48,151 nt of DNA from a virus: IMG/VR virus record IMGVR_UViG_3300028030_000017, positions 1 through 48,151 of that record; one strand, 5' to 3'. This document shows positions 26,501 to 41,473 of the stretch, one piece after another (positions within the stretch are counted from its first letter, which is position 1; every line of letters starts with the position of its first letter). The notes under the pieces are model-generated. The model saw only the letters and a list, made by a program, of their open reading frames with translations, made no database searches and was not told the origin of the DNA. The position numbers and the translations under genes are program-made.

Positions 26501-26884
26501 ATGTCTTTAGTAAAAAAGCAGTGGGAATTTGTACGGGATATAGCGAAACTCATTACATTCGCTGAAAAACACGGTATTATGCTCACTTTCGGTGAAGCAT
26601 TCCGCACGCAAGACCAGCAAAAACTCAATTATTACGGCTACGAAGTCCAATTGAACGATCAAGAAATCGGCTTCAAGAAAAAAGAACCTACTTCGTGGAC
26701 GTTACAATCGCAGCACTTGAAACGTCTCGCGGTTGATTTTAACTTTTTTGTAAAAGGGAAATTAACCTACAAAAAAGAGGATGTGCAGCTGCTCGGCGAT
26801 TATTGGGAAAGTCTAAACCCGAAAAACCGTTGGGGAGGTAATTGGCTCACGCCGGATACGCCTCATTTTGAACGCTTAGACTAA
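26501..26884 (+). CDS. Endolysin, M15 (VanY/DD-carboxypeptidase-like) peptidase
   Basis: 127 residues with start at 26501 behind AGGGGGTT; an upstream in-frame ATG at 26486 has a worse site. The zinc-binding pattern of M15 peptidases is seen: H72 and D79 in SQHLKRLAVDF, then H122 in TPDTPHFER, with R35 in GEAFRT. It would cut peptidoglycan stem peptides at lysis. No signal peptide is present, so it needs the holin. Its stop codon overlaps that of the convergent sigma gene. Confidence 0.88.
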   Translation: MSLVKKQWEFVRDIAKLITFAEKHGIMLTFGEAFRTQDQQKLNYYGYEVQLNDQEIGFKKKEPTSWTLQSQHLKRLAVDFNFFVKGKLTYKKEDVQLLGDYWESLNPKNRWGGNWLTPDTPHFERLD

Positions 26885-27426
26885 AGCAAGTCTGCAATTT
26901 TAGCGTGTAGTTTTTTAAGCTGACCACGGGTAAGCCCCGTGGCTTTTTTCACCTCGAAAATTTTATATCCATCTTGAAGCAATTTTAACGCTTTCCACTC
27001 TTTAGCGTTTAACCTCGATTTTAACTTTCTCATTAAATCCTCATCAAGTATTTCTTTTTCAACCGACGCTTCGTGAGAGCTTATAGCGTCGAAAATCCAG
27101 TCGTCGTCACCGACAAAATGTGCGGAAGTTTGCACTTTTCGACTAACCGGAGAGGCAACTACACGATTTTTCATCGAGTAGTCCAGCAGCTCATTCCTTA
27201 CCACTCGGTAAGCGTAGGTTGTCAATTTCACGCCTTTTGTGGGATCGAATTTTTCAATTGCTTTGATAAACGCTAAAACTCCCTGATTTACATAATCATC
27301 GAAATCGGCGTAGCTATGATGTTTTGAAATGATTTTGATGATCAATTTCAAATTATCCAATATTAGTTTGTCGCGCTCTATTTTAGACACTCGCAAAATT
27401 AACACTCCAAAAGTAAGCAAATACAC
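26881..27426 (-). CDS. Phage sigma-70 family RNA polymerase sigma factor
   Basis: Up to 181 residues. Region 2 is clear: LILDNLKLIIKIISKHH, then DFDDYVNQGVLAFIKAIEKFD (core binding) and TTYAYRVVRNELLDYSM (-10 recognition). Region 4 at the C-terminus is AKEWKALKLLQDG with a helix-turn-helix (EVKKATGLTRGQLKKLHAK). It is likely the switch factor for late genes, but may act on middle genes. The exact start is uncertain: GTG 27426 directly abuts a hairpin, while a GGAG lies before an internal TTG/GTG about 12 codons later. Its last 60 bases carry the late terminator on the other strand. Confidence 0.85.
   Translation of the reverse strand: MYLLTFGVLILRVSKIERDKLILDNLKLIIKIISKHHSYADFDDYVNQGVLAFIKAIEKFDPTKGVKLTTYAYRVVRNELLDYSMKNRVVASPVSRKVQTSAHFVGDDDWIFDAISSHEASVEKEILDEDLMRKLKSRLNAKEWKALKLLQDGYKIFEVKKATGLTRGQLKKLHAKIADLL
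26924..26949 (+). terminator. Intrinsic terminator of the late operon
   Basis: CCACGGG (26924-26930) and CCCGTGG (26936-26942) pair with a 5-base loop and are followed by C and six T (26944-26949). It reads on the plus strand 40 bases after the endolysin stop, inside the 3' end of the oppositely oriented sigma-factor gene. Confidence 0.85.
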
Positions 27427-27428
27427 TT

Positions 27429-27467
27429 CAAAGCAAATTCAAAACGGATAACCGTGAATTTGCTTTG
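27429..27467 (-). promoter_or_regulatory. Long hairpin directly upstream of sigma gene
   Basis: Perfect 12-base arms (27429-27440 and 27456-27467) enclose a further 4-bp stem (ACGG/CCGT). It falls between the ribonucleotide reductase beta stop and the sigma start and has no U tract on the minus strand. It could attenuate read-through into the sigma gene, control its translation, or be a DNA operator. Confidence 0.6.
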
Positions 27468-27486
27468 ATAAATCCGCACGCTTATC

Positions 27487-28542
27487 TTATTTAGATTGTA
27501 ACATCATTTTGTTTAATTTAACGCCGTTTTTCCTAACATCACTCCACTCGCCCAGCCGGATATTTTTTGTGTAGCCCGTCACTTCTGTTTCAAAAAAGTT
27601 AGCCAATTCGACCGACGATAATAACTCTTCCATGAAATTGACAGGATTTTTAGTGGTTTCCCATTGAAGAGGTAAACCTAACATTTTCAATGCCCTGTTA
27701 CCCATAAAAGCCACATAGTGTTTGGCCGTTTCAATGGAAATAGTCGGATGCTCACCGTGGGCATATAGATAGTCTAAAAGCGCGAACTCTTGCTCAACGA
27801 TTTGACGGATGGCGTTTATGATATCATTACGCACTTCATCGGTATACACGTCCGCATTTTCTTCTACCAATTCCAAAAACAACATCGTGTTATATTTTTG
27901 GTGTAAAAACTCATCTTTGATCGAGTACGTGTTAATTTGAGTCATCCCCTTGAATAAACCCAATTCCGAATAAGCTAATAAAAGCATAAATTGAGCCATT
28001 AGCTCGATGCCCTCCAGCCCAGCGGCGTAAACGGCAACCATTCTAAGCACGTCCGCGCGAAACCGTTTATCAATTTCAATATCAGACAATCCCAACGCTT
28101 TATAATCGCGCCACGTCTTCACCTTCGCTTTTTCAAGATAGTTGATCTTACGCTCCATAACGGGGATGTCGAAAAACTCATTGTAAAAAGTTTCGTCGAA
28201 ACCCAAAGAATCCGTCAACAACGCATAAGCATCCACGTGAATAGCTTCGACGGATAGTGCAGTACTAAGCCACATACGTATTTCCGTAGGTTTCACAATG
28301 TCTAAAAGTCTAATGTATCCGGTCATCGCTTCCACGTCGTTTTGTGTAAATAGCCGAAGAATGTTTCGGATAAACTCTTTCTCTTTATCGGCCAGTTTAT
28401 TGTAATCGACTATATCTTCGCCGACAGGCACCTCTTTAGCCCGCCAATGTAACGCTGACTGCTCTTCATAGGCTCGATAAGCCCATTCGTATCTCATCGG
28501 TTTATAAGTCGCAAATTTCGATTTTTGTCTTAAAATGCTCAT
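27487..28542 (-). CDS. nrdB: Ribonucleotide reductase class I, beta subunit
   Basis: 351 residues. It makes the radical used by the alpha subunit to reduce ribonucleotides. Metal ligands are in the expected order: D69, E99 and H102 (VEAIH), E177, E211 and H214 (DEFLH). The radical tyrosine Y106 is four residues after H102, as in E. coli NrdB. The C-terminal FFETEVTGYTK matches the subunit-contact region. The ribosome binding site GGAGGT is well placed. It follows the alpha gene by 12 bases, as an operon pair. Confidence 0.95.
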   Translation of the reverse strand: MSILRQKSKFATYKPMRYEWAYRAYEEQSALHWRAKEVPVGEDIVDYNKLADKEKEFIRNILRLFTQNDVEAMTGYIRLLDIVKPTEIRMWLSTALSVEAIHVDAYALLTDSLGFDETFYNEFFDIPVMERKINYLEKAKVKTWRDYKALGLSDIEIDKRFRADVLRMVAVYAAGLEGIELMAQFMLLLAYSELGLFKGMTQINTYSIKDEFLHQKYNTMLFLELVEENADVYTDEVRNDIINAIRQIVEQEFALLDYLYAHGEHPTISIETAKHYVAFMGNRALKMLGLPLQWETTKNPVNFMEELLSSVELANFFETEVTGYTKNIRLGEWSDVRKNGVKLNKMMLQSK

Positions 28543-28554
28543 TGGTTTACCTCC

Positions 28555-30387
28555 TTAACCACAATAGATACATTCTTCAAAATTTCGATCAGTACCGCTC
28601 ATTGTCGTGATCATTTCATCCGCTCTCCGCATATCGTTCAAATTACCCACTTTTATAGGTTGATCGCTTCGGATGTAGTATAGACTTTTCAAACCTTTAG
28701 CCCACGCGAAAAGGTGAATCGCGTGTAGATAATCCGCGTTAACGGGAGGCATGATAAACAAATTAACCGATTGCGATTGATCGATATATTTTTGCCTTTC
28801 GGCGGCTAACTCGATAATCGCTTCTTGGGGAATTTCGTAAGCCGTTTTAAACACTGCCTTTTCTTCATCGGTTAAACCGTCTAAATGCTGCACACTCCCT
28901 GCATTCGCCCTAATAGATGCCCACACGTCGTCCGTATCCATATTTTTCGATTGCAGTAGGTTAACGAGATAGCGATTTTTTACAATTTCAGTGTAGGCAT
29001 TTGTTTTGTGAGCGTAAATGTTTGTAATGATCGGATCAATGCCCTGAGATGTCCCGCCGCAAAGCGTAGAAATCGACGCAGTTGGCGCAATAGCCGTCAC
29101 GTGAGTGTTACGTTGCATTTTGTCATGTTTTGCCGCTAACGGGCACGCGCCTTTTTCTTTAGCTAAAAGCTCGTTGGTTTCTTTGAAGCGTTGCCGCATA
29201 CGGGCAAAAATGTTTTTATTGAGTTGGAATGCCGCGACACTATCAAATGGCAGCATCTTTGACATCAGCAAATTGTGAAAGCCCATTACGCCGATACCGA
29301 TAGAGCGTTCATATTCGGCACTTTTAACGGCATTTTCAAAACCTTTTTCCCCTTCAGCGTTGGCAATAAAATCCGATAGAACGTTATCTACAAAACGATG
29401 CACGTCAAGTAAAAACAAATCAAAAATTTCAGGGGATGAAAATTCGTCGTAATGCTCTAAATTGATGCTGGACAGTACGCAAATCGCGTCATAGTTTGGA
29501 TTAGTGTGTAGTGTAATTTCGGAGCATAGATTAGAGGTAAATACAAATTTGTCATCTTGCACATACAAATCAGGGCGATTCTGATTAACCGTGTCTACAA
29601 ATAGTATAAACGGCGCGCCCCGAAGCATTCGTTGATCTAAAAGTTTAGTCCATAAATCGAAAGCGTCTACGGTTTTTATTACTTCACCAGTTTTCGGTGA
29701 AATCAAATCATAAGATGCTCTATCGTTAACCGCTTTCATAAATTTATCATCAATGACTACGCCCGTAAACAATTTATGAGTGCGGCGATAAATATCGCCA
29801 GACGGATCGCGTAAAGAGATGAATTCATCAATTTCGGGATGCCATATCGGGAGCCACGCCGCCTCCGATGCACGCCTCAATCCGCCCTGCGAAACGGCCA
29901 AAGTCATAGCTTCATCGACTTTGAGAAAAGGGATGATCCCAGATGATTTACCATAAATACCGACTTTTTCACCCGCTGACCTTACATCACCCCAATAACG
30001 ACCAATGCCCGCGCCTCTCGCTCCGAGGTGAAACCCGTTGAACCATGTCTGCATAATCGAATCTTTATTGTCGCCCACGTGCTGAACAAAACAACTAACG
30101 GGAAATCCGTGTGACGGTAGCCCCGCATTAGCACTGACGGGCGTAGCTGGGTGAAACCAATGATTCCGAATATATTGTTTTATTCGGCCACGATGCTCAC
30201 GGGAATCGCTATATTGTCTACACACTCGATCTAACCACGTTTCATAATCTTCACCGTCTTTAAAATATCGACTCTCGTAGAGTGTCCGGGAGCGTTTCGG
30301 CAAACCGCCCCAACCTCTCCCGGATATAATCGGTACTTTAAATTCATTGACCATAACATCTCCCATGTGTATTTTTCGCACGCTCAT
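28555..30387 (-). CDS. nrdA: Ribonucleotide reductase class I, alpha subunit (no ATP cone)
   Basis: 610 residues, the catalytic subunit of class I reductase. Catalytic residues are visible: C99 (PVSCFV) and C303 (AICVLSS) as the disulfide pair, the radical site C288 within NLCSE (N286, E290), and the C-terminal C606/C609 redox pair (EECIYCG). It is about 150 residues shorter than E. coli NrdA and lacks the N-terminal ATP-cone, so overall activity control by dATP is probably absent. Start after AAAGGAG; an ATG at residue 12 is possible. Confidence 0.95.
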   Translation of the reverse strand: MSVRKIHMGDVMVNEFKVPIISGRGWGGLPKRSRTLYESRYFKDGEDYETWLDRVCRQYSDSREHRGRIKQYIRNHWFHPATPVSANAGLPSHGFPVSCFVQHVGDNKDSIMQTWFNGFHLGARGAGIGRYWGDVRSAGEKVGIYGKSSGIIPFLKVDEAMTLAVSQGGLRRASEAAWLPIWHPEIDEFISLRDPSGDIYRRTHKLFTGVVIDDKFMKAVNDRASYDLISPKTGEVIKTVDAFDLWTKLLDQRMLRGAPFILFVDTVNQNRPDLYVQDDKFVFTSNLCSEITLHTNPNYDAICVLSSINLEHYDEFSSPEIFDLFLLDVHRFVDNVLSDFIANAEGEKGFENAVKSAEYERSIGIGVMGFHNLLMSKMLPFDSVAAFQLNKNIFARMRQRFKETNELLAKEKGACPLAAKHDKMQRNTHVTAIAPTASISTLCGGTSQGIDPIITNIYAHKTNAYTEIVKNRYLVNLLQSKNMDTDDVWASIRANAGSVQHLDGLTDEEKAVFKTAYEIPQEAIIELAAERQKYIDQSQSVNLFIMPPVNADYLHAIHLFAWAKGLKSLYYIRSDQPIKVGNLNDMRRADEMITTMSGTDRNFEECIYCG

Positions 30388-30402
30388 TATACTCCTTTTC
30401 GC

Positions 30403-31098
30403 CTAATCTAAAGTTAGTTTATCTTTCACATTCTCGAAAAGAAAAAGATGCTCTTCTGGAATTTCATCATACATGGCACGGGCCAACTCTCTAAATGCCC
30501 ACAAAGCCGTTTTATCGAGCCGCAAATTCAAAACGTGTCGCAATTCCCTAAGATTGCACGTGAGTACCAGATCGGTTTTGTAACTTTCGGGCAGTGCAAA
30601 TTTTGCAATGTCGTTACTAATCTCTTCACTGACCAATGCGCGCAAATTTTCCAGTGCCCACAACGATGCACCGTCTACCGCTACGTTACCCGTAAAATAT
30701 ACATACTTTTCCGCGCGTGACGCATCGTCAAGGAGAGATCGGAAAGGTGCTTCGACTCTCAACTCTTTGAGTGTGTAACGACTTGAACGCACACTCAAAC
30801 TAATGTGACGATGACGCGCCAACTCTTGCAAAACCGCGCGCGAAATGCCGATTATGCGAAACGTGTAAACTACATGCTCAAAAACACTTTCGTGGCGATA
30901 TTTATACAACAACCGATTCAACAATTGCTTATCCGCGTCGCTAATGTCATTAGTAGATGAAGCATAGTTACCGCCTTTATGGAACGATTGCCAACAAGTC
31001 CGCGCACCAATAACAATGTTTGAAAGTTTTGTACTTTCCACCAAACTCACTTGTGGAGAGGATTTTAAAGAAAAAATTTTTTCTTTTACATCGATCAT
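30403..31098 (-). CDS. thyX: Flavin-dependent thymidylate synthase
   Basis: 231 residues. It converts dUMP to dTMP with FAD and methylene-tetrahydrofolate. The ThyX signature is present as RHRHIS at 95-100 followed by S102, S105 and R107 (the usual Asn is replaced by Ser). The preceding RHESVFEH (68-75) is also typical. Together with dUTPase and ribonucleotide reductase it supplies dTTP for replication. Its start overlaps the previous stop (ATGA) and has a GAGGAGG site. Confidence 0.95.
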   Translation of the reverse strand: MIDVKEKIFSLKSSPQVSLVESTKLSNIVIGARTCWQSFHKGGNYASSTNDISDADKQLLNRLLYKYRHESVFEHVVYTFRIIGISRAVLQELARHRHISLSVRSSRYTLKELRVEAPFRSLLDDASRAEKYVYFTGNVAVDGASLWALENLRALVSEEISNDIAKFALPESYKTDLVLTCNLRELRHVLNLRLDKTALWAFRELARAMYDEIPEEHLFLFENVKDKLTLD

Positions 31099-31355
31099 TC
31101 AGCACCTCCTCGTTTCAATGATGATGTTTTACGCTTATGTCGCAAATAAAACAACCGGATCAAAAGGATAGGAGCCGTAAATAGCACTAATATACTTCCC
31201 GTCGCTTGATCATCGTCATTGCCGAAAATCGCGTTGATCCATCCGACAAAGAAAATAGTCCAGACTATGCCCATCAAAACGGGGGTAATGTCCACTTTAG
31301 TCCCCAGCCAAATGAAAAGCATTAACAAAATGCCCACTACCAAAATTTCCAACAT
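31095..31355 (-). CDS. Three-helix membrane protein, unknown
   Basis: 86 residues with about three hydrophobic segments (about 1-18, 21-42, 51-70) and a basic C-terminal tail (HKRKT). The start is chosen at 31355 behind GGAGGTTAAA. Family unknown; being in the middle operon between nucleotide genes, it could be a superinfection-exclusion or membrane-modifying protein, but nothing shows this. Confidence 0.6.
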   Translation of the reverse strand: MLEILVVGILLMLFIWLGTKVDITPVLMGIVWTIFFVGWINAIFGNDDDQATGSILVLFTAPILLIRLFYLRHKRKTSSLKRGGAE

Positions 31356-31356
31356 T

Positions 31357-31716
31357 TTAACCTCCTTCAATAGTATTTTCGTCAAACCAACCATCTTTTC
31401 CGCAGTTGACCAACCTCACGACCTTTACATCGGTAGCACCTTCGGCGGCTTCGGTTTGTAGCCATTCCATCGTTAATGTAGCGTAGCCTGCAATATCACG
31501 CCAGTCATCCACAAATCCGCCGCCTTTGGAAATTACGCGGGAAATTTTTTGCGCTATGTAATCAAGGGCTTCTTTTTCGACAAAAGTCAAATTTTCATAC
31601 TGCTTAATTTCACGAAATTTCGCTTTCAAATCCTGTGCTATTTTTGCATTATCTTCCCACGAACCGTGAGTTTTTCCTCGTTCTTGCAACGTTGTTTGTA
31701 CGTCATTTTTCTTCAT
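31357..31716 (-). CDS. DUF6378-like phage protein
   Basis: 119 residues. The pattern ERGKTHGSWEDNA followed by KEALDYIAQKISRVI and DDWRDIAGYATL is that of a widespread phage protein family often annotated DUF6378. Its helical acidic pattern is reminiscent of MazG-like nucleotide pyrophosphohydrolases. A role in nucleotide-pool housekeeping fits its neighbours ThyX and ribonucleotide reductase, but enzyme activity is not demonstrated by sequence. Confidence 0.7.
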   Translation of the reverse strand: MKKNDVQTTLQERGKTHGSWEDNAKIAQDLKAKFREIKQYENLTFVEKEALDYIAQKISRVISKGGGFVDDWRDIAGYATLTMEWLQTEAAEGATDVKVVRLVNCGKDGWFDENTIEGG

Positions 31717-31975
31717 ATTTAAACCCCCTCAAATCGTAATATGAATCAAGTTTTTCTACGCGCCCAAACTGCTCTAAAAACGGTAACATTTTATAAAGCT
31801 CAATGACGCGATAATCAATTGCATCAAGATAAAAAACTACATCATAATCTTCCAAACCTTGAAACTCTTTTTTAAGTATTTGTTTCGCTTGATTAAGCTT
31901 ACCGTTAATGATGTAGTATTGCATAACTTCTTCAAAGTTTAACCATTTATCTAAAGCTGGGATATATGCCCGCAT
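31703..31975 (-). CDS. Hypothetical protein
   Basis: 90 residues, rich in Tyr, Leu and acidic residues, probably helical, no known family. Start after GGGGGTGAAACT. It overlaps both the preceding and following genes by some bases, so it is part of the middle operon. Confidence 0.6.
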   Translation of the reverse strand: MRAYIPALDKWLNFEEVMQYYIINGKLNQAKQILKKEFQGLEDYDVVFYLDAIDYRVIELYKMLPFLEQFGRVEKLDSYYDLRGFKYEEK

Positions 31976-32241
31976 AGTTTCACCCCCATTCTTTTTTGTA
32001 TTGCAAGCCGCTGCGCTTCTTTGTCTATCACGCCTGTAAAGGGCGCTACGATATCCAAAGCGGTTTGTTTATCTTTACCGTAAGCGCCGTTTAAATCCCA
32101 CGATAATCGATCGTGGTAGATAGATCGCCCAATAACGGGCAATTCCGGCATCGGGAAATAGCGCATAGGTTTAAAAACCGCTTCGACGTAAGCAAGATCG
32201 CCGTTACGAAGCTTATAATACTTACCCGCTTCAATTTTCAT
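31951..32241 (-). CDS. Hypothetical protein
   Basis: 96 residues. The first 35 residues (YYKLRNGDLAYVEAVF) look like a small beta-barrel or SH3-like fold, a common feature of small phage proteins; the rest is mixed. The start at 32241 follows AAGGAGGG. Function unknown. It overlaps its neighbours on both sides. Confidence 0.6.
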   Translation of the reverse strand: MKIEAGKYYKLRNGDLAYVEAVFKPMRYFPMPELPVIGRSIYHDRLSWDLNGAYGKDKQTALDIVAPFTGVIDKEAQRLAIQKRMGVKLCGHISQL

Positions 32242-32536
32242 TCTTCCCTCCTTCATCGTGAAGCTTTTTTACATATTTTTTATACTTATTTAGCTTCTCC
32301 GTTTTGTTAACAATCCGGCGGTTAATTTCAATGATCAATCCTTCTAAATGTTCACGTGTCGGATCGTCCCATTTTAACGTCATGTACTGTTTGCGATACT
32401 TTTCACGAGCGATTTTAAGCATTGCAATTTCCGCGCGAATTGCACGGATAAAAATTTCAGGGGTTGTATATGTTTTGCGGCAAAATTCCGCAAAATCACA
32501 ACCATAAACCTCATCAATAGTGTAAATTTCTTCCAT
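32231..32536 (-). CDS. Hypothetical helical protein
   Basis: 101 residues, with start chosen at 32536 behind TTGGAGGG. A longer in-frame reading runs into the nuclease gene and has no ribosome binding site. The protein is strongly helical and ends in a Lys-rich coiled segment (RRIVNKTEKLNKYKKYVKK), which could bind nucleic acid. Family unknown. Confidence 0.6.
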   Translation of the reverse strand: MEEIYTIDEVYGCDFAEFCRKTYTTPEIFIRAIRAEIAMLKIAREKYRKQYMTLKWDDPTREHLEGLIIEINRRIVNKTEKLNKYKKYVKKLHDEGGKNEN

Positions 32537-32619
32537 TACAACCCTCCAAAAAGTACCACAAATAGCAACGCCGCTAAAAAGACAAACCAAAAAATAATTT
32601 CCTCTTCTTGATTTTGCAT
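32536..32619 (-). CDS. 27-residue single-span membrane peptide
   Basis: A short frame starting at 32619 after AAAGGAGCGGAAG. The first seven residues are polar and acidic; the remainder is a hydrophobic helix (IIFWFVFLAALLFVVLF) ending in Gly-Gly-Leu. Its stop overlaps the next ATG by one base and its own last codons provide the next ribosome binding site. These are signs of a real coupled gene despite its size. Function unknown. Confidence 0.6.
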   Translation of the reverse strand: MQNQEEEIIFWFVFLAALLFVVLFGGL

Positions 32620-32630
32620 CTTCCGCTCCT

Positions 32631-33413
32631 TTAAATAGTGCCGCATACGAAAGGACACACTTTGTAATAATTGCAGTATTTTTCACTACACAACGGTGAA
32701 GCAGGGTTACCGCTAAAAAGAACTTCCGCCGGAGCCGCGTCATTGTAATACGCTTCTATTTTGTCAATCAATGTGTTAACCACGAAGCGCGCTTGGGGCA
32801 CGTTGAGTCTTAACGGCAGCACATGCACCGCTTTTTCGTGTACGATATTATGAATGATCGCTTTCGTATAATCTTCGTTATCTACCCGCGACGCAAGTAA
32901 AGCGTAAACCGATAATTGTAACGTGTAGTGTGTCGGCACCGCTTTTCTTGCCGTCGTCTTGATGTCGGCGATAGCTCCGTCAAGTACAATATCCGCAGTC
33001 CCCGCGACTTTTTCGACGACGGGCGAACCGAGCGGAATTTCATAACGCTCCTCGACTTTTTTAGGTTGTGTCACTTCCATCGTCGGCTTATACAGATCAA
33101 TATCGGTCAAAATCACGCGTTCCCAGTCTTCGGGGCGCGTGTCTTCCATTTCCGGCTCATCTTCTTTGAGCTTTTTATGAAACTCTTCGATAGCCGCATC
33201 TTTAAGCACGCTCACCGGGGGCAGGCTCCCCGATTTGATTTTTTCCGTGTAGCCGACTTCGGCTCCTTTATGAACCGCCGTTCCCGCCGTCATTCTAACA
33301 TTTGGGATCATCGGCTCACCCAAAATGTGCTGGCGAAACCATTTATAATTACAACCCACAAACGTCGAAATCGACGATGGACGAATCGTGAGTTTTTCAT
33401 TTTTCTTTTTCAT
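32631..33413 (-). CDS. Cas4/RecB-like PD-(D/E)XK nuclease with Fe-S cysteines
   Basis: 260 residues. Nuclease core: H48 in TAVHKG, D141 in AGTADIVLD, D150-I-K152 (DIK) and Q166 in YTLQLSVYAL. Four cysteines, C21 near the start and C242, C247 and C253 at the end, are placed as in Cas4/AddB-type [4Fe-4S] nucleases. Such phage enzymes trim DNA ends in recombination-dependent replication. No CRISPR genes are near, so a role in spacer acquisition is not suggested. Start after AAAGGATAAGCA. Confidence 0.85.
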   Translation of the reverse strand: MKKKNEKLTIRPSSISTFVGCNYKWFRQHILGEPMIPNVRMTAGTAVHKGAEVGYTEKIKSGSLPPVSVLKDAAIEEFHKKLKEDEPEMEDTRPEDWERVILTDIDLYKPTMEVTQPKKVEERYEIPLGSPVVEKVAGTADIVLDGAIADIKTTARKAVPTHYTLQLSVYALLASRVDNEDYTKAIIHNIVHEKAVHVLPLRLNVPQARFVVNTLIDKIEAYYNDAAPAEVLFSGNPASPLCSEKYCNYYKVCPFVCGTI

Positions 33414-33423
33414 TGCTTATCCT

Positions 33424-33861
33424 TTAATGTTTTCCGGTTGATCCAAAACCGCCGACCCGCTCCGCGTGAGTGTGCTTCACGCTCCGCATAATTGCCGCCG
33501 TTTCGTGGGGCAAAAGCAACAGTTGAGCGATTCTTTCGTACCGATTTATAACGACTGGATTTTTGCCGTAATTGATTAACAACACGCCTATTTCGTCCGG
33601 GTAATCGAGGTCGATGACCGGGAAAACGTTTGCAAGCGTAATACCACGTAACGCAAGACTCGACCGCACCGCTAACGTTAAAAAGTGAGTGTCGGCGACG
33701 CTCTTAACGTCCGCGGCGTTTACGTCGATACGCACGCCGATGGGGACTATCGTGGGCGTGAACGGCTCCAATAGAGTCATTTCACGCGCTCTTATATCCA
33801 GCCCTGCACTCTTCGCGGTTTTTCTTTCGGGTAGTAAGTTATCATCTTCAACTATGAACAT
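33424..33861 (-). CDS. dut: dUTP pyrophosphatase (dUTPase)
   Basis: 145 residues, trimeric type. Motif 1 is SAGLDIRA, motif 2 is in VRSSLALRGI, motif 3 is VIDLDYPDEIGV, motif 4 is RIAQLLLLP and motif 5 is the C-terminal GGFGSTG. It breaks dUTP to dUMP, the substrate of ThyX, and keeps uracil out of phage DNA. It overlaps the polymerase gene by 10 bases and starts after GGAGGCG. Confidence 0.95.
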   Translation of the reverse strand: MFIVEDDNLLPERKTAKSAGLDIRAREMTLLEPFTPTIVPIGVRIDVNAADVKSVADTHFLTLAVRSSLALRGITLANVFPVIDLDYPDEIGVLLINYGKNPVVINRYERIAQLLLLPHETAAIMRSVKHTHAERVGGFGSTGKH

Positions 33862-35699
33862 TTCGCCTCCTTTTCGATGTAATGTCCCACCGTTTCATAA
33901 CGGTAGATTCTATCTTTGCCTTTTTGCAAACTCTTCCAGTCAACGCCCGGCGGCACTACGTCCACTTCAACGGGCATTGGGATGTTTTTGATTTTACATT
34001 GAGGTGCGTACTGCACCCACGCTTCGGCCATCGCATCCCCTACCGCTTTCGCAATTTGCTTTGCTTCGTCTTCGGTATCCGCTTCAAAAGTGTAACTATC
34101 GTGGACGTACATTAAAAGCTTGCTAACGTCGGTCGTGTCGCTCATGTAGTGTAAAGCAAGCTTCGCAATTTCGGCACCCGCTCCCTGAATCGGGATATTG
34201 AGCCACATATTAAGCCGATCCGCTTTCACGCGGCGGCCCAAAGGCGTAACGGTAAGCTCACCAGCTTCCATGCGTTTCGCGCTCTCTTGATGCCATTGCC
34301 AAACTTTAGGATAGAGTTGGTACCAACGAATATGATAAGTATACACTTCCTCATCGGACAGGTTTATGCCCGTCCACTTCAACAGTATTGATTGTTTCTT
34401 TTTCGCCCCAGCACCGTAAAGCGAACTAAAATTGAAGACTTTTGCAATGCTTCGCTGGGTGTCGGTAACTTCGTCTTCAGGCACGCCGAAAAGAAACGCC
34501 GCCGTATAGCGGTGAAGATCGGTGCCGTCGATAAGCAAACGCGCCATCGTGTCGTCCCCTACCACCGCCGCAAATGTACGTAATTCGAGGTTGGAAAAAT
34601 CCGCGTAGATAAGATATTTGTCTTTTGACGCAAATACGTTTTTAAGCGACGAAGGGATCTGCTGGAGATTCGCTTCGGCGCATGATGAACGCCCCGAAAT
34701 CGGAGAAAGCCCTAAATGGCCTTTAACATAACCGTCAAGCGTCAAGCGTTTTTCATAGTCTTCTAAAAAAGAGTTTTGTTTACGAATCGCACGCACCTTC
34801 CGAACGGCGGCGGCACGGTAAGAAACGGGCATAGCGTCCCAGTCCTCTTTAGTCATCGTGTAACCGTCTTCGATTTGCTTTTCAAGCTCATCGAAGTTTT
34901 CCGCTTTGATTGCACGCTCTTTGATTTTTTGGGTATGTGAGCTTCCACAACCGCACGCCAACGCCGCTAACGCCGCATCGTCAGATTCGGTGATGCCCAG
35001 CCACGGACGGACTTGCCGGTAGCTATTTGCATTTACGGGCAAATTCCACCGCTTTAAAAGTTTCACGTTGTGAGAGTGCTGCTCTTTGACTTTTTCGATA
35101 TCCAAATGCAACGCACCTTTACACTCTACGAAATGTTCAGCGGTGAGTTTATCCAGACGATATGAAAACGTACCAATAGCGTCTTTGACGGCGTGAAAAA
35201 CACGCGGTAGATAAGCTACGTCGATAGCGGCATAAAGCAAGTGATTTTCATCAAGCTCAATCGCACCCCATTTTGTACGCTGAAGCTTTTTCTTTTCAAG
35301 TCCAGCTTTTTCATACGGGTCGAAGCTCCAGACTTTCATCATGCACGCATCAAGGCTGTATTTTTCCCATTCCGGTTTTGAGAGTCTTGCAAGTAAAAAA
35401 GTATCTTCCCATCGTTTAAAATCACGTGGTAGAAAGCCGTAAGGTTTTAAACAGTGGAAATCGTAAAGCAAGTTATGACCGATAATCCGGTCAGCGGTTT
35501 GGAGAGAGAGTAGGGCGGCGATTAACGCCTCATCAGTGTCTTTTTTAGTGTCGATAATGTAAAGTTTCCCATCTGAACTATCACGCGGAGTGATATACGC
35601 TTGCAATAATCTCACCGCGCCATAAAGCCCGGCAGTTTCCGTATCTATGTAAGCGTCGTAGCCCGATAGGTCAGACGGGAGCCGTGTTAAATAATTCAT
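33852..35699 (-). CDS. Family A DNA polymerase with 3'-5' exonuclease
   Basis: 615 residues, start at 35699 after AAGGAGGTTAAC. DnaQ-like proofreading domain: D19/E21 (IDTETAG), GHNLLYD (74-80), and Y156-xxx-D160 (YAAIDVAYL). Polymerase motifs: A is ADFSNLELR, B is RSIAKVFNFSSLYGAG and C is YVHDSYTFE. The motif B aromatic residue equivalent to E. coli F762 is Phe. It has T7-like overall size, without a 5'-3' exonuclease. The genome also carries a primase-polymerase, so the two probably share initiation and elongation. Confidence 0.95.
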   Translation of the reverse strand: MNYLTRLPSDLSGYDAYIDTETAGLYGAVRLLQAYITPRDSSDGKLYIIDTKKDTDEALIAALLSLQTADRIIGHNLLYDFHCLKPYGFLPRDFKRWEDTFLLARLSKPEWEKYSLDACMMKVWSFDPYEKAGLEKKKLQRTKWGAIELDENHLLYAAIDVAYLPRVFHAVKDAIGTFSYRLDKLTAEHFVECKGALHLDIEKVKEQHSHNVKLLKRWNLPVNANSYRQVRPWLGITESDDAALAALACGCGSSHTQKIKERAIKAENFDELEKQIEDGYTMTKEDWDAMPVSYRAAAVRKVRAIRKQNSFLEDYEKRLTLDGYVKGHLGLSPISGRSSCAEANLQQIPSSLKNVFASKDKYLIYADFSNLELRTFAAVVGDDTMARLLIDGTDLHRYTAAFLFGVPEDEVTDTQRSIAKVFNFSSLYGAGAKKKQSILLKWTGINLSDEEVYTYHIRWYQLYPKVWQWHQESAKRMEAGELTVTPLGRRVKADRLNMWLNIPIQGAGAEIAKLALHYMSDTTDVSKLLMYVHDSYTFEADTEDEAKQIAKAVGDAMAEAWVQYAPQCKIKNIPMPVEVDVVPPGVDWKSLQKGKDRIYRYETVGHYIEKEAKCS

Positions 35700-35719
35700 G
35701 TTAACCTCCTTCGGCATAC

Positions 35720-35736
35720 CGCCCCCGAAAGGGGCG
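35720..35736 (-). promoter_or_regulatory. Small GC hairpin between SSB-like and polymerase genes
   Basis: CGCCCC (35720-35725) and GGGGCG (35731-35736) pair around a 5-base loop, just upstream of the polymerase ribosome binding site. No U tract. It may protect mRNA or tune polymerase translation. Confidence 0.45.
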
Positions 35737-35741
35737 ACGGC

Positions 35742-36245
35742 TTATAGTCGCGGCTCCGCTGCAGTGCCTACATTTTCGTCTTCGGTCGGAATGGCCGCTT
35801 GAACGATAGAGTTATTATCGCCCAGCAGCTCATAGTATCGTTTAATCAACGCTTGCTTCGCTTCATCGGACAGTACGAGATGCAAAATCTCATACCCGTT
35901 CGATTTGCACACTTTCTTCTCGTTGTCATACTTATCGCCCTTCTTCCATTGCAGGGTGATTTTGTACGCTTCTTTAGTCCGCATCGCGCCGTTTTGAATC
36001 CGATTTTGAATGACGGTCTGATTAGGAAAGCTAACCAGTTTAGCCGACTTGACTGCCTCTTCGATTGAAGCTGCCGAAGGGTCGAATTGAAGCCCCTGAA
36101 TCACGGTGAAATTACCGTACTCCGGCGACGTAGCGTCGCCCAGTCCCATAAACAATAGCGTAATGCTATCACCAACTTGATCGAACTTAAACTGCGCATA
36201 AGGGCTATTGCCAACTTTCTCTTCCGCTTGAATGAATCCAGCCAT
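35742..36245 (-). CDS. Putative ssDNA-binding/replication accessory protein
   Basis: 167 residues; start after GGAGGTCAATT. The first 115 residues are beta-rich with several aromatic and basic residues. The C-terminal 20 are acidic to neutral and end in EPRL. Position directly upstream of the polymerase and the acidic tail recall phage ssDNA-binding proteins such as T7 gp2.5, but no OB-fold motif is certain. The primase-polymerase also ends in EPRL, hinting at a shared docking tail. Confidence 0.45.
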   Translation of the reverse strand: MAGFIQAEEKVGNSPYAQFKFDQVGDSITLLFMGLGDATSPEYGNFTVIQGLQFDPSAASIEEAVKSAKLVSFPNQTVIQNRIQNGAMRTKEAYKITLQWKKGDKYDNEKKVCKSNGYEILHLVLSDEAKQALIKRYYELLGDNNSIVQAAIPTEDENVGTAAEPRL

Positions 36246-36295
36246 AATTGACCTCCTATGTAATGATTTAGATTAAAAGTTTAACCGATAAAAGC

Positions 36296-36640
36296 TTAAT
36301 CATCGGTTAAGGTTAACCGTCGAAAAATCGCTTTGCCATCCCGATAAATGTTTACTACATAAATCGGCATAACCTTCGTTAATTTCGACAGCACCGATAT
36401 TTGAGATGGTCGAAGCGTATTATTTTCAAACTTCACTTCAAAACCACCAGCTTCAACTTCTTTAAGCCGTTTTTCAGTTACAATGAAATCCGGCAACCCA
36501 CGAAGCACGGGGGAATAGATTTTGAACCCTTCTTCAAAACCGATAATTCGTTTAAAATAAGGATATGTATCCTTTTCTTTTTTGAAATCTTTCGGCTTTT
36601 CGGGTACATAAGTATAAACCTCATCAAGGCTGTAACTCAT
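36296..36640 (-). CDS. VRR-NUC-type nuclease
   Basis: 114 residues, start at 36640 after AAGG. The PD-(D/E)XK core of VRR-NUC proteins is visible: P50-D51 (GLPDFIV), E68-V-K70 (GGFEVKFE) and Q80 (RPSQISVL). Family members act as single-domain structure-specific nucleases, possibly on Holliday junctions. It sits beside the SNF2-type helicase, a pairing seen in many phages. Confidence 0.85.
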   Translation of the reverse strand: MSYSLDEVYTYVPEKPKDFKKEKDTYPYFKRIIGFEEGFKIYSPVLRGLPDFIVTEKRLKEVEAGGFEVKFENNTLRPSQISVLSKLTKVMPIYVVNIYRDGKAIFRRLTLTDD

Positions 36641-36667
36641 AAGCAAACCTTATAATTAGATTTGCCG

Positions 36668-37888
36668 TTAAAAAGGTATTTCGCTTTTTCCCTCCTGTAT
36701 CCTTCGCCGTAAGTAGGTATCGAAATCTTCCTTTCGGTTGATGATTTTCTTAACCTCAAAATCGATATTTTGTCGTAAAAGATGTACGGCGTTAACACGG
36801 TGTGTTTGACCTGATCGATATACGCGTCCCCGCGCTTGATAATAAGTGCGAAACGCCAACGGTTGCGATAAGAAAAGCAGCGTATCGTAATGATGCTGCA
36901 AGTTGATCCCCTCCGCTATCGCATAAGTCGCAAAAACGGGGCGATCCCCCTTACTCAAAATTTTCGGTACGTCGCCTTTATAGTCCCCACGCACATAATA
37001 AAAGCTATCGCCGTATTTTTCAGCCACATATTTAACGGGGGCTTGAAAATACGAGAAAACGATCGTGTGAGGGTTGTCTTTTACGAAGTCGATAGCGTAA
37101 TCTATTTTCGCCGTATCAACTATTTCGTGAGTTTCGGGGTGAATCCCCTGCGCTATCGCATATGCCATCATGAACTGCGTCACCGTGGATTCAAGTTGCG
37201 CTTGATGTTCACGCCAAAGTTTCGCCAATTTAGGCGATTTAGGCAGATTGTGGTAGATTGGTTGCAATGGGGGCATTTCGACCGCATCGAGGTTGACGCG
37301 ATACGTATAAGGGTCGATTTGCCGCGCTATCTCGTGACGATATTCAGATCGTAAAAGCGCGACGGGCTGCCCGTACTCGTTAACGAAAAAATATCGGCTT
37401 TTCCACTTCGTCCAACTTTCGCCGTCCCACATTTTCGGATCAATGAGCCGATACTGAGAAAACAACTCATATTCACGGTCCGCTGGCGTTCCGCTCATCA
37501 ACAGTTTCGGCGTGTGTTTGTAGTATTTCCAAATCCGCTTCGTAATTTCCGCCGCGGGGTTTTTGAGGCGGTGAGCTTCGTCGCAGATAAAAAACTCAAC
37601 TTTCGGCAATAGCTTCAACCGCGTGAATTTTTCGTAGGTAAAGAGATTTTCGTTTGTCTTGAACGCCAGCCCCATTTTCGCGCCGTCTTCGATCCACGAT
37701 GGATGGGCTGATTTGGGCGCAAGTACGAAGTACTCGTCTTTCGGCAAATTTAAAGCTTTTAGCACCGCCAACGCGCCAATAGTTTTACCTACCCCCAAAT
37801 CCCCGTGAAGATATGCGGAGACGGGTTTACCGTCGCCGCGGCGCAGATACCAATCTCTAAACTCTTTTTGCCACTTACGAAGTTTCAT
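36668..37888 (-). CDS. SNF2/DEAD-like DNA helicase (SF2)
   Basis: 406 residues. Motif I is GDLGVGKT (29-36), motif II is DEAH (103-106), motif III is MSGTP, and motif VI is QARGRVYRSGQTH, the SNF2 signature of ATP-driven DNA translocases. It is compact, without extra domains. Phage homologues act in recombination or replication restart. It overlaps the next gene downstream on the strand and follows the VRR-NUC in function. Confidence 0.9.
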   Translation of the reverse strand: MKLRKWQKEFRDWYLRRGDGKPVSAYLHGDLGVGKTIGALAVLKALNLPKDEYFVLAPKSAHPSWIEDGAKMGLAFKTNENLFTYEKFTRLKLLPKVEFFICDEAHRLKNPAAEITKRIWKYYKHTPKLLMSGTPADREYELFSQYRLIDPKMWDGESWTKWKSRYFFVNEYGQPVALLRSEYRHEIARQIDPYTYRVNLDAVEMPPLQPIYHNLPKSPKLAKLWREHQAQLESTVTQFMMAYAIAQGIHPETHEIVDTAKIDYAIDFVKDNPHTIVFSYFQAPVKYVAEKYGDSFYYVRGDYKGDVPKILSKGDRPVFATYAIAEGINLQHHYDTLLFLSQPLAFRTYYQARGRVYRSGQTHRVNAVHLLRQNIDFEVKKIINRKEDFDTYLRRRIQEGKSEIPF

Positions 37889-38087
37889 GATCTTCGCGGC
37901 GGTGCTTTTCGTTGATCGCGGCCGCCCGTATTAGGTCGATAATCGCTATAATGTCGGTGTCGGTTTTATCGGCGATTTTACGCAGCCCTACCAGTATTTC
38001 GCTTAAAAGCTCCGGCACCGCGCCTTCAATATGTACGACGGGATTTTCGTCATTGTCTTGATGATTTGCTATGTCGATGTGTATCAT
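37875..38087 (-). CDS. Small hypothetical protein
   Basis: 70 residues, start at 38087 behind GGAAGGG. It starts with a His/Asp-rich strand (IHIDIANHQDND), followed by a helix (PELLSEILVGLRKIADK) and a charged tail. It overlaps the helicase start by 14 bases, so it is co-translated. Family unknown. Confidence 0.6.
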   Translation of the reverse strand: MIHIDIANHQDNDENPVVHIEGAVPELLSEILVGLRKIADKTDTDIIAIIDLIRAAAINEKHRREDHETS

Positions 38088-38332
38088 TTTACAATCCCTT
38101 CCGGCGTGATAATTCGTATACACTCCCGCAATGTGTCATTCCACAGCTCCACTACTTCGTATTTTTGCGGATCGAGGATGATGCTGAGTTTAGTCTTTGC
38201 ACTTTTTAGCCGATCCGGAAAATAGTGGATCGTGATAAACTTGTCTTTTTCCGATTTGTTTTGTATTTCAAAATCGTTGACTTTAATGTAATTTTCGCGC
38301 TTACCGCCTTTATAAACGATTCGCATTATCAT
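38084..38332 (-). CDS. Small hypothetical protein
   Basis: 82 residues, beta-rich (repeated short strands such as FITIHYFP and LSIILDPQKYEVVELW). No family recognised. Start follows GGAGGG; a second ATG two codons later is possible. It overlaps the next gene by four bases. Confidence 0.6.
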   Translation of the reverse strand: MIMRIVYKGGKRENYIKVNDFEIQNKSEKDKFITIHYFPDRLKSAKTKLSIILDPQKYEVVELWNDTLRECIRIITPEGIVK

Positions 38333-38334
38333 TG

Positions 38335-38544
38335 TTATTTGCCCTCCTTTTCATTGATTATCCAGTACCGCCGTCCCGCAATGACAATATTTTCAAGCGG
38401 TACTTTAACCGGATGTCCTTTACGCTCTACGTAAGCTGCGCCCACGCCCCTTTTAGGTAAGCACAGCGCAACTTCTTCCCAGCGATTGTGAGTCGCGTTC
38501 CAAACGGTAATCATCGCTCCCAATGTCCAGCTTATCGGGCACAT
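38335..38544 (-). CDS. Small hypothetical protein
   Basis: 69 residues, start at 38544 behind GGAGGTGCTGG, overlapping the methylase 3' end by 13 bases. It reads as a small beta barrel: MITVWNATHNRWEEV and a KVPLENIVIAGRRYW closing strand. Such KOW/SH3-like proteins are common in phages. Unknown function. Confidence 0.6.
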   Translation of the reverse strand: MCPISWTLGAMITVWNATHNRWEEVALCLPKRGVGAAYVERKGHPVKVPLENIVIAGRRYWIINEKEGK

Positions 38545-39347
38545 CCAGCACCTCCATTTATCACGATACATTCCGTGTTTCGATGTTTCGCTTCGGCATA
38601 ATTTTTGTTTTTTCCGCTGCCGATACAGATGGTGTAGTCAAATTTCACGACTTTATAATCACCTTCAAACCGCTTGACAAAATCATCATAGTAATGACTT
38701 AAAATCCAGCGGCCTCTAATGTTTCGTAGCACCTCTTCAAATTCATCATAATCGAATGGCGGCACGCCGCTATATTTTTCAGTGTCTTTGTACGGCGGAT
38801 CAAAATAGAAAAATGTGTCGGGGCTATCAAAACGCTTCACGATAACTTTGTAGTCATCATTGAAAATGTAAGCGTCTTTAAGCCGCGCCGCCGTGTCCAT
38901 GATTCGCGCTTCAATATTTTGTTTTGTGTGCGGATGGTTTCGTTTTTTCGAGAAAGCGAAACCTCCGTTGATTTTTTGAGTGAATGATCCGCACACATTA
39001 AAAAGAAAAAGTGCCGCTTTTTCCGCAGGCGGAGCGTTTCGGTAGTAATCCGTTGTAGTTTTAGCCTGATTGTAATACACATCTTTTGCATAGGGTAAAA
39101 GCGAAAAGATTCGCTTCACCTCATCGGGATTTTTACGCAGCTGATCGAAAAGATTCACAATATCGCCGTTAAGATCGTTTAAAACCTCGATATACTTCGA
39201 GGGGGCGATATCGGAGCGGCTTTTCGCAAAAAAGATCGCCGCCGATCCGCAAAACGGCTCAACGTAGACCGTATGCTCCGGAATGTAAGGTAATATCTTT
39301 TTTGCTAATTTTTGTTTCCCTCCCATATAACCGAAAAGCGGCTTCAT
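38532..39347 (-). CDS. DNA adenine-N6 methyltransferase (Dam/D12 class)
   Basis: 271 residues. Substrate/cofactor motifs: FGYMGGKQKLA at the start, the AdoMet site VEPFCGSAA (29-37), and the catalytic DPPY (183-186). It modifies adenines, probably at GATC-like sites, protecting phage DNA from host restriction or marking it for replication and packaging. Start after GAGGAGGCG, overlapping the HTH protein's stop region. No cognate endonuclease is adjacent, so it is an orphan methylase. Confidence 0.9.
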   Translation of the reverse strand: MKPLFGYMGGKQKLAKKILPYIPEHTVYVEPFCGSAAIFFAKSRSDIAPSKYIEVLNDLNGDIVNLFDQLRKNPDEVKRIFSLLPYAKDVYYNQAKTTTDYYRNAPPAEKAALFLFNVCGSFTQKINGGFAFSKKRNHPHTKQNIEARIMDTAARLKDAYIFNDDYKVIVKRFDSPDTFFYFDPPYKDTEKYSGVPPFDYDEFEEVLRNIRGRWILSHYYDDFVKRFEGDYKVVKFDYTICIGSGKNKNYAEAKHRNTECIVINGGAGCAR

Positions 39348-39348
39348 T

Positions 39349-39558
39349 TCACGCCTCCTCTTCGGAATCTTTCACATCATAATCTCCCGCACTTTCACGC
39401 AAACCCTCTTTAAGTTTGCAAATATACCACTCTTTCAAAGCGGCATAAACTTTGGGGCGTGAGTTTTTCCAGTGATAGAGTGTGCGGGTTTGGATGTCCA
39501 AAGCTTTCGCCAACTGTGGATTTTTGATATCTTCCGGATTGATGGTCGGTTTAGTCAT
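39349..39558 (-). CDS. Small helix-turn-helix protein, candidate regulator
   Basis: 69 residues, start at 39558 after GGGAGAG. The segment LAKALDIQTRTLYHWKNSRPK (about 16-36) reads as a helix-turn-helix, and the C-terminal 15 residues are acidic. It is the only small DNA-binding protein found near the operator-controlled early promoters, so it is a candidate repressor of them; there is no direct evidence. Overlaps its upstream neighbour by eight bases. Confidence 0.65.
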   Translation of the reverse strand: MTKPTINPEDIKNPQLAKALDIQTRTLYHWKNSRPKVYAALKEWYICKLKEGLRESAGDYDVKDSEEEA

Positions 39559-39955
39559 TTTTCTCTCCCTTAGATTGGATAAACGCTTCGGCGGATGAAA
39601 AAATTCCAAGCCCTGCTAACACGTCAATCGTCGCCGCGGGTACGTTTTGTACTAACCATTCAATAATTTTCGATTTTTTGTTTCCCGTCAACAATACGCT
39701 GTTAAACTCATTCCGTTTATTCATTGGTAGCAACAAACCGAAAACAAGTAACCGCTCAACTTTTTTATTTTCATTCGAGGCTTCTATAACACTATCCAGT
39801 GCTTTCCCTACAAAAAACAGCTTTTCACGCGGTGTAAGGGCATCAAAATCGCCCTCCGCAACTTTCACCGCCATTTTTTCAAGCTTTTCATCAGGTATTC
39901 CCAACGCTTCGCTTATTGCAGTGGCTTCGTGATTTATTTTGATATCTTTATACAT
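39551..39955 (-). CDS. Hypothetical helical protein
   Basis: 134 residues; the start at 39955 follows AAAGGAGGTCAAA. A longer in-frame reading (to about 40141) lies inside the neighbouring gene and lacks a site. Helical throughout, with no known family. Segment LTPREKLFFVGKALDSVIEA recalls small phage regulators, not firm. Overlaps the upstream gene by eight bases. Confidence 0.6.
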   Translation of the reverse strand: MYKDIKINHEATAISEALGIPDEKLEKMAVKVAEGDFDALTPREKLFFVGKALDSVIEASNENKKVERLLVFGLLLPMNKRNEFNSVLLTGNKKSKIIEWLVQNVPAATIDVLAGLGIFSSAEAFIQSKGEKND

Positions 39956-40574
39956 TTTGACCTCCTTTAGTATGTGATTTTTGTGATACTTTAGCCCCTT
40001 CGACAATAAAATATTCCGCCGCTGTACGTACGAAGATATCCCACTCATCTTTGTTACCCTGCTCGTAAAATTGTCTTGCAAGTTGTAAAGGTATAGAGGG
40101 GGCATCGTCTGAAAAATTGATTTTTCGATCAGCTTTACCAATTCCCGGCATCCACGAAATCATCATATCTGTTAGTTTAGATCGCCCAAAACGGGCCGCT
40201 ATCATTGCACCTAAAAGCGTAGGCTCCGCGCCGTCAAAAATCTCTCTTAACATCCCGTTCACCGCCATCGCTAAAAGTAAGCTTCCGTGGGGCAAGTCGA
40301 TATAAACATATTCAACCCCCTCTTCGGCAAGTGAACGAATGTAATTCATAACGTATTTGGTATTCTTATCCGTATCCGTCGTGTCAGTCAAACCCAATTG
40401 ATATGGAAACGGATAGCGTGCCTTACCACGTTCAGGGTCAATGTAGAAAATCCCCGCTTTTTCGCAAGTGCGGCGGATAAGACTCTCACGATCCCCGTCA
40501 TCAAAAACGCCGAACGTTTCAGCGTAATCCTTCAAATCTTCCAAACTCATTTCTCTTAGTGTTTGTTCAGTCAT
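39948..40574 (-). CDS. Hypothetical protein downstream of structured leader RNA
   Basis: 208 residues, soluble, mixed helix/strand, no family recognised. Notable parts are a Glu-rich N-terminal helix, FYIDPERGKARYPFPYQ and an Ala-rich stretch with AMIAARFGRSKL. It starts after AAGGAGGTCAAA at 40574. It is the first full-length gene after promoter P1, the structured RNA element and a 9-codon leader peptide, so its expression may depend on that RNA. Confidence 0.6.
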   Translation of the reverse strand: MTEQTLREMSLEDLKDYAETFGVFDDGDRESLIRRTCEKAGIFYIDPERGKARYPFPYQLGLTDTTDTDKNTKYVMNYIRSLAEEGVEYVYIDLPHGSLLLAMAVNGMLREIFDGAEPTLLGAMIAARFGRSKLTDMMISWMPGIGKADRKINFSDDAPSIPLQLARQFYEQGNKDEWDIFVRTAAEYFIVEGAKVSQKSHTKGGQNV

Positions 40575-40575
40575 T

Positions 40576-40604
40576 TTGACCTCCTTATATTTTTATGTTA
40601 TAAT
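40576..40604 (+). promoter_or_regulatory. Possible antisense promoter
   Basis: TTGACC (40576-40581), 17 bases, and TATAAT (40599-40604) on the plus strand would start RNA at about 40611, antisense to the structured leader RNA. The -35 part is also the complement of the common GGTCAA ribosome binding site, so it could be fortuitous. Confidence 0.3.
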
Positions 40605-40627
40605 CGCTGCGCCGTTAAATAAGGCAT
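40598..40627 (-). CDS. 9-residue leader peptide (MPYLTAQRL)
   Basis: A strong AAAGGAGGTC precedes ATG at 40627; the frame closes with TAA nine codons later, 23 bases before the next start. The site and start codon lie inside a stem-loop (GCAGCG and CGCTGC arms). It may be the relic of a former gene whose leader was interrupted by the structured RNA, or a real regulatory leader peptide. Confidence 0.4.
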   Translation of the reverse strand: MPYLTAQRL

Positions 40628-40639
40628 TTGACCTCCTTT

Positions 40640-40869
40640 GCAGCGTAAAGCGGGGCACTATCCCTCTGTTAGCTTGCAGCCCCGCTTGCAAGCAATTATC
40701 CTTCAACGTTTCCGGTCGCCCTCCCGTCAGGGCGTTTCGGGATTCTCACGGCTACCCTGTTTCCGCACGCCTTGCCAAAGGGCGTGTCACGAGGGCGGGA
40801 AATCCCCTCGCGGCTCGTCTTTCCGAGCGGTCATGGCGTCGGGCTTTCGGCTGCCCTCGGCTTATTGTT
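40640..40869 (-). ncRNA. GC-rich structured RNA with pseudoknot, unknown class
   Basis: About 230 bases without a convincing gene, clearly more GC-rich than the neighbours, driven by promoter P1. Hairpins on the minus strand: 40813-40828, 40790-40810, 40766-40786 and 40717-40734. The stems 40649-40656/40679-40686 (8 bp) and 40672-40678/40687-40693 (7 bp) interleave, which is an H-type pseudoknot or a two-state switch. Unpaired stretches on the minus strand are GAAA/GGAAA-rich, as expected for the sense strand of a folded RNA. Candidates are a new phage RNA, a leader riboregulator, or a HEARO/omega-type or TnpB-type guide RNA remnant. No IscB or TnpB gene is present in the window. Confidence 0.6.
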
Positions 40870-40875
40870 ACCGTT

Positions 40876-40908
40876 ATTATAACATACTTGACGCTATTTG
40901 TCAAGTAT
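40876..40908 (-). promoter_or_regulatory. Early promoter P1 with palindromic operator
   Basis: Minus-strand TTGACA (40904-40899), 17 bases, TATAAT (40881-40876). Arms ATACTTGAC and GTCAAGTAT overlap the -35 and spacer with a 7-base centre. Feeds the structured RNA and the genes down to the sigma factor. Confidence 0.85.
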
Positions 40909-40910
40909 AT

Positions 40911-41168
40911 TTAATCGCGGCTCACCAACTTTTTAATGTCACCTTCCAAATCATAGCTTTGAAAGACAATTCCGCCACCAAAGTCGCGGCCTCGATATTT
41001 CTTACCACCGATTCGCTCTTTGGCGATTTTGACAGCCTCATCATAAGACTCGGCACCAGGCACGACTCCCCACCAAACTACGTAGCGGGGATTCCCGTTC
41101 ACGTCGTTTTTGATTCGCTCGACGTGAATAGGCTCATCGTGAACGTAGATCGTTTTTGTGTTAGTCAT
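40911..41168 (-). CDS. Small hypothetical early protein
   Basis: 85 residues, start at 41168 after AAGGAGGTTGAA. Two short strand-helix units (TIYVHDEPIHVERI; YDEAVKIAKERIGG) with a Gly-rich turn. Unknown family. It has its own promoter, P2. The gene runs up to promoter P1: its stop is three bases from the operator. Confidence 0.65.
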   Translation of the reverse strand: MTNTKTIYVHDEPIHVERIKNDVNGNPRYVVWWGVVPGAESYDEAVKIAKERIGGKKYRGRDFGGGIVFQSYDLEGDIKKLVSRD

Positions 41169-41196
41169 TTCAACCTCCTTCATTTTTCTTACTGTT

Positions 41197-41225
41197 ATTA
41201 TAACGTAATTAACAGTAAATGTCAA
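41197..41225 (-). promoter_or_regulatory. Early promoter P2, variant operator
   Basis: Minus-strand TTGACA (41225-41220), 17 bases, TATAAT (41202-41197). The spacer is diverged from the other copies. Instead of the usual palindrome, TACTGTTA and TAACAGTA form 8-base arms around the -10 box. It may escape the common regulator or answer to another one. Confidence 0.8.
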
Positions 41226-41242
41226 GAGGTTACAACTAAAAT

Positions 41243-41473
41243 CTACAAAATTTCAAAATTTTTTCCGTCGCCGTCGAAGTAAAGAGTGTACTGCGTCACG
41301 TCATCGACGACTAAAACTTCCCGATTTTTTACGTCGTTAAAAGTCGGATCGATACTCTCCCACACACTCCCATCATCTTGAACGACGTAAATAAGCAACT
41401 CATACGGATCATCGTCTTCATCGAGTAGCCCGAACGCGACGAATTTTTCATAAATCGTATCTCTAACACTCAT
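41243..41473 (-). CDS. Acidic small protein
   Basis: 76 residues, start after GGAGATGCT. It has about 19 Asp/Glu against 5 Lys/Arg, giving a net charge near -14, with beta strands (TQYTLYFDGDG). Small acidic phage early proteins are sometimes DNA mimics that block restriction or other defences. Possible here, but only charge and setting support it. Confidence 0.6.
   Translation of the reverse strand: MSVRDTIYEKFVAFGLLDEDDDPYELLIYVVQDDGSVWESIDPTFNDVKNREVLVVDDVTQYTLYFDGDGKNFEIL

Follow-up and report, generated by a model that had tools for sequence, protein, structure and literature searches.

A putative structured RNA leader ahead of the replication operon of an unclassified tailed phage

One of six early promoter cassettes in an unclassified tailed phage carries, between the shared promoter and leader start and the shared ribosome-binding site, an extra stretch of ~220 nt (40641-40864, minus strand), delimited by cassette comparison and likely to be a structured RNA of the minus strand. 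We propose that the transcript from this promoter, P1, carries the element as a structured 5' leader, and that it acts in cis on the replication operon behind it, a reading that we hold with about as much confidence as doubt. The main argument for such a role in cis is the association, in a single case, of an insert with a long operon. A preliminary description of this DNA had reported a common promoter start and a common end at P1 with a GC-rich stretch between them, and this is confirmed here; it had overlooked that P1 heads a 13.7-kb operon, as well as a nine-codon open reading frame (ORF) and a promoter-like site on the plus strand.

The window, i.e. the whole stretch of DNA analysed, is a complete IMG/VR virus record of 48,151 bases. 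Genes for portal, capsid, Mu F-like and tail proteins lie on the plus strand of the phage, and genes for replication and nucleotide metabolism on the minus strand; a plus-strand terminator is found at 26923, where the two gene sets converge. The DNA polymerase shares at most 35% identity with those of named phages. Searches of IMG/VR with the 208-aa protein encoded behind P1, the primase and the polymerase returned no close relatives, so that the phage is a singleton in that collection and an orphan.

Six early promoter cassettes and one insert

The six early promoters, P6 to P1, are found on the minus strand, with TATAAT at 44662, 44055, 43716, 42640, 41202 and 40881, respectively. They share the -35 and -10 boxes and a short leader, match the consensus at 12 of 12 positions with a 17-bp spacer and, with the exception of P2, have TG before the -10 box. 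P1 (40876-40904, minus strand; TTGACA-N17-TATAAT, TG before -10) has the layout of P2-P6 and is a putative promoter by the same signs. An inverted repeat, CTTGAC-N7-GTCAAG, overlaps the -35 box at P1 and P3-P5, occurs with one mismatch at P6 and is missing from P2 (minus-strand sites at 44685, 44078, 43739, 42663 and 40904); it is a possible operator for a shared repressor.

The distance from the predicted start to the Shine-Dalgarno sequence AGGAGG is 17-19 nt at P6-P2 and ~230 nt at P1. The short leader described earlier as common to P3-P6 is indeed present, but in its exact form, AGGAGGTCAAAATG, it is confined to P4 and P5; P6 has one additional A, and P2 and P3 read GGAGGTTGAAATG. At P1, TTGACA-17-TATAAT is followed by AACGGTAACAATAAGCC, and CAAAGGAGGTCAAATG then appears at ~40640-40625. 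The P1 cassette has kept both the common start AACGGTAACAA and the common end CAAAGGAGGTCAAATG, with ~220 nt between them. This insert is unique to P1, the other five cassettes being its empty counterparts, and no second copy is present in the record.

The cassettes also differ in what they head. Spacing from P6 to P1 is just 0.3-1.4 kb, and P2-P6 head short units; a 104-aa ORF in this region (40911-41225, minus strand) matches Pfam Phage_TreK at E 1e-18, a family of terminal-repeat proteins from Staphylococcus phages. P1 is the last promoter of the series and the only strong one ahead of a contiguous operon of 13.7 kb and ~20 genes (26881-40574, minus strand; gaps of at most 60 nt). Encoded there are a D12 methyltransferase, a SNF2-type helicase, a family A DNA polymerase, a PD-(D/E)XK nuclease, ThyX, the large and small chains of ribonucleotide reductase and a sigma-70-like protein. 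A single promoter-like site, a weak one, was found inside the operon (38680), and a simple scan detected no intrinsic terminators within it. The last gene (26881-27426, minus strand) encodes a sigma-70 region 2 protein, a candidate for the switch to late transcription. A GC hairpin, GCCCC-TTTC-GGGGGC, lies just 5' of the DNA polymerase gene (35690-35740, minus strand); this gene probably begins 18 nt inside the listed ORF, at the ATG that follows AAGGAGGTTAAC.

Directly behind the element, the old binding site of the cassette, CAAAGGAGGTCAA, now opens a nine-codon ORF, MPYLTAQRL-stop (40597-40640, minus strand), which is presumably translated and precedes the gene for the 208-residue protein. 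A second, near-identical binding site ~50 nt downstream, AAGGAGGTCAAA, serves this gene itself (39948-40574, minus strand), the first full gene of the operon. No family was found for its product, and the predicted protein structure (pLDDT 48) was too poor for use.

Predicted structure of the element and searches for relatives

With 61% GC against 45% for the phage, the element exceeds in GC every other stretch of this length in the window. The preliminary description had set a protein reading frame against an RNA, and every minus-strand frame is interrupted within the element. Two plus-strand ORFs over it, of 112 aa (40576-40914) and 214 aa (40638-41282), were considered as genes and dismissed, since both have TTG starts and the longer crosses a real gene on the opposite strand; we take them to be by-products of GC-rich palindromic DNA.

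The same description had noticed five or more strong stems, an interleaved 8-bp/7-bp pair and A-rich loops on the minus strand, all of which were found again. The minus-strand RNA contains five non-overlapping perfect hairpins, a number equalled in 25 of 2000 shuffles (1.25%; shuffle mean 1.7). The predicted hairpins, all on the minus strand, are H1 (GGGC/GCCC; 40841-40856), H2 (GCUCG/CGAGC with loop GAAAGA; 40813-40828), H3 (CGCGAGGG/CCCUCGUG; 40788-40812) and H4 (CACGCC/GGCGUG with loop CUUUGGCAA; 40766-40786), of which the H4 loop could pair alternatively with the 5' end (GCCGA) or the binding site (CAAAG). In H5 (40717-40742), UCCCG/CGGGA is predicted to interleave with CGCCCU/AGGGCG; as almost no linker would remain, the two helices are probably alternatives and not one pseudoknot.

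At its 3' end the element probably folds into an H-type pseudoknot (40648-40693, minus strand). Stem 1, GCUUGCA/UGCAAGC, has 7 bp (40693-40687 with 40678-40672) and stem 2, AAGCGGGGC/GCCCCGCUU, has 8-9 bp (40687-40679 with 40656-40648); because they have a single base in common, they can coexist as 7+8. The loop, UAACAGAGGGAUAGU, measures 15 nt, and the pseudoknot would end ~10 nt ahead of the Shine-Dalgarno sequence. Its score was matched by 15 of 3000 dinucleotide shuffles (0.5%), and interleaved stems elsewhere in the 48 kb outscore it at two sites, so that the pseudoknot alone is inconclusive and its genome-wide significance modest.

Nested folding energy is modestly low (z -1.9 on the minus strand and -1.5 on the plus strand), the similar folding of the plus strand being expected of palindromic stems. 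A makes up 44% of the bases predicted to be unpaired on the minus strand and 16% of those on the plus strand. Structured RNAs typically show such an A bias when read in the sense orientation, and it is the strand with the A-rich loops that P1 drives.

No family of Rfam 15 matches the element, either at the gathering score or at E up to 10. The scan proposed earlier, with HEARO included, was likewise negative: neither the covariance model of HEARO (RF02033) nor that of EAR (RF01735) hit the element, even with E relaxed to 10, whereas the EAR model did hit its control in B. subtilis. BLASTN against phages and plasmids produced chance matches of 20-40 nt only, and a translated frame had no match in plasmids. 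Exact scans with four element motifs in IMG/VR and one in GTDB genomes revealed no homologue, as the matches inspected lay in coding sequence or in surroundings without similarity, and a scan of IMG/VR for the promoter cassette found none. The covariance search for relatives that had been recommended was run over ~1,400 genomes with a model built from the single sequence (the 3' 139 nt of the element), and it too yielded no homologue; its two weak matches, one inside a prmC-like gene (L019) and one overlapping ORFs on both strands (L020), were rejected as chance, given the size of the search. Exact motifs and a single-sequence model detect close relatives only, and records near the window's own were possibly left out. 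As no homologue emerged from the collections searched, the structure could not be tested by covariation, and the statistics above describe one sequence. From the earlier view of an inserted, mobile RNA we retain a structured, probably minus-strand RNA within a stereotyped cassette and let go of mobility, the element being single-copy and without a relative in these collections.

A proposed cis-acting operon leader and its alternatives

RNA polymerase starting at P1 would first make ~228 nt, comprising a row of GC-rich hairpins and the 3' H-type pseudoknot, and would then pass ~10 nt, the ribosome-binding site, the nine-codon ORF, the 208-aa gene and the ~20 genes spread over 13.7 kb. Since the element occurs only in the cassette that heads a long operon, an operon-wide role is the most likely: it might help polymerase through the long transcript in the manner of the put RNA of phage HK022, or protect the 5' end. 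Our leaning towards this role rests on positional analogy with put. In a second mode, the pseudoknot beside the binding site would control translation locally. Several results speak against a cis-acting leader, namely the missing homologue and covariation, a z of only -1.9 with the other strand folding about equally, and the unmatched EAR model; in addition, as the simple scan found no intrinsic terminator inside the operon, any need for antitermination is hypothetical.

In an alternative explanation, the element is a noncoding phage RNA that acts in trans: it would use P1 as its promoter, be cut from the leader and either bind a protein of host or phage or imitate a host RNA. The element resembles free structured RNAs in its size, in the compact folding of its GC-rich sequence and in its A-rich loops. 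On either side of the insert, the start of the leader and the binding site have been preserved, which implies that the gene behind needs no insert and is also favourable to an RNA working elsewhere. On the minus strand, however, the element has neither its own terminator nor a processing site, and no Rfam family or relative was found, so we regard this explanation as unlikely. Less probable is that the phage captured a GC-rich fragment without function, or that the structure arose by chance, the insert being tolerated because promoter and binding site are intact. This would agree with a single example lacking detected relatives, with the modest folding z-score and with a composition foreign to the phage, but hairpin and pseudoknot counts exceed those of composition-matched shuffles, and phages seldom keep non-functional DNA in front of a main operon.

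The plus strand offers a further explanation. A promoter-like site, TTGACC-N17-TATAAT with TG before -10 (40576-40604, plus strand; 11/12, predicted start ~40611), faces the element and the early genes. It has the 11-mer TATGTTATAAT in common with the early promoters, and the early promoters and this site are the only 17-spaced TG sites with at least 11 matches in the 48 kb. RNA started at ~40611 would be complementary to the binding site, the short ORF and the pseudoknot, and might end after ~90 nt at a terminator-like stem of 8 pairs with a weak T tail and a weak consensus match (40672-40693, plus strand). This RNA could serve a sense-antisense switch resembling plasmid copy control, shutting down expression from P1 and perhaps of other early genes that share the binding site; its predicted 5' end pairs with the P2-P6 leaders at ~-20 kcal/mol. 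Complementarity to the other binding sites is nevertheless automatic. The -35 box TTGACC is the mere complement of GGTCAA in the binding site of the 208-aa gene, so that half of this site may be coincidence. Furthermore, the terminator tail is weak, no homologue demonstrates conservation and the 5' 150 nt of the element are left unexplained; such a switch is, in our view, improbable.

The domesticated or decayed transposon guide RNA suggested by the preliminary description (HEARO/IscB omega RNA or TnpB reRNA) is very improbable: its size range and 3' pseudoknot would broadly suit such an RNA, but HEARO is unmatched, the TnpB zinc-ribbon domain (PF07282) has no match in the record, the element's model and DNA resembled nothing in 49 and 55 TnpB loci, respectively (two phyla; such RNAs are very diverse), and the pseudoknot is followed 3' by a ribosome-binding site and not by guide-like sequence.

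Comparison with known systems

For a cis-acting operon leader, the put RNA of HK022 is the nearest precedent in position. It renders RNA polymerase resistant to terminators with no need of protein factors. Like put, the element would be a leader RNA placed directly behind an early phage promoter (it starts within ~10 nt of the predicted P1 start) and heading long early transcripts. The putL site is found directly behind PL, and its action extends over >10 kb (PMC9378689). Whereas put consists of ~70 nt in two stem-loops, the element has ~220 nt, at least five hairpins and a pseudoknot; as its size and form fail the put definition we do not file it as put, and with a likeness that is positional any put-like activity is putative.

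EAR (epsC, RF01735), which mediates antitermination in Bacillus, is also the structured leader of a long operon, but it differs from the element in size and its covariance model found no match there at E up to 10. The repZ leader of ColIb-P9 combines a pseudoknot, a leader peptide encoded by a short ORF and a facing antisense RNA, Inc. The same three parts are predicted here, namely a leader pseudoknot, a short ORF and a facing antisense promoter; in the phage, however, the pseudoknot precedes the binding site of the short ORF, the antisense RNA is only predicted and no replication-initiator gene was identified downstream. HEARO and TnpB-linked RNAs resemble the element in size range and in having a pseudoknot, and are unlike it in that no model matches, no nuclease gene is present and nothing similar turned up at the TnpB ends sampled.

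Phage leader RNAs known to govern an entire early operon with no help from a protein are very few. It is a tentative and rather doubtful prospect that the element represents a previously undescribed kind of large phage leader RNA, which modifies RNA polymerase or is paired with its own antisense RNA and has no relation to put, EAR or the families of Rfam. Its effect would be directly measurable by leader swaps in a reporter, the five paralogous insert-free cassettes of the same genome serving as built-in controls, and if the element did act on RNA polymerase, it would constitute a second, larger design beside put RNA.
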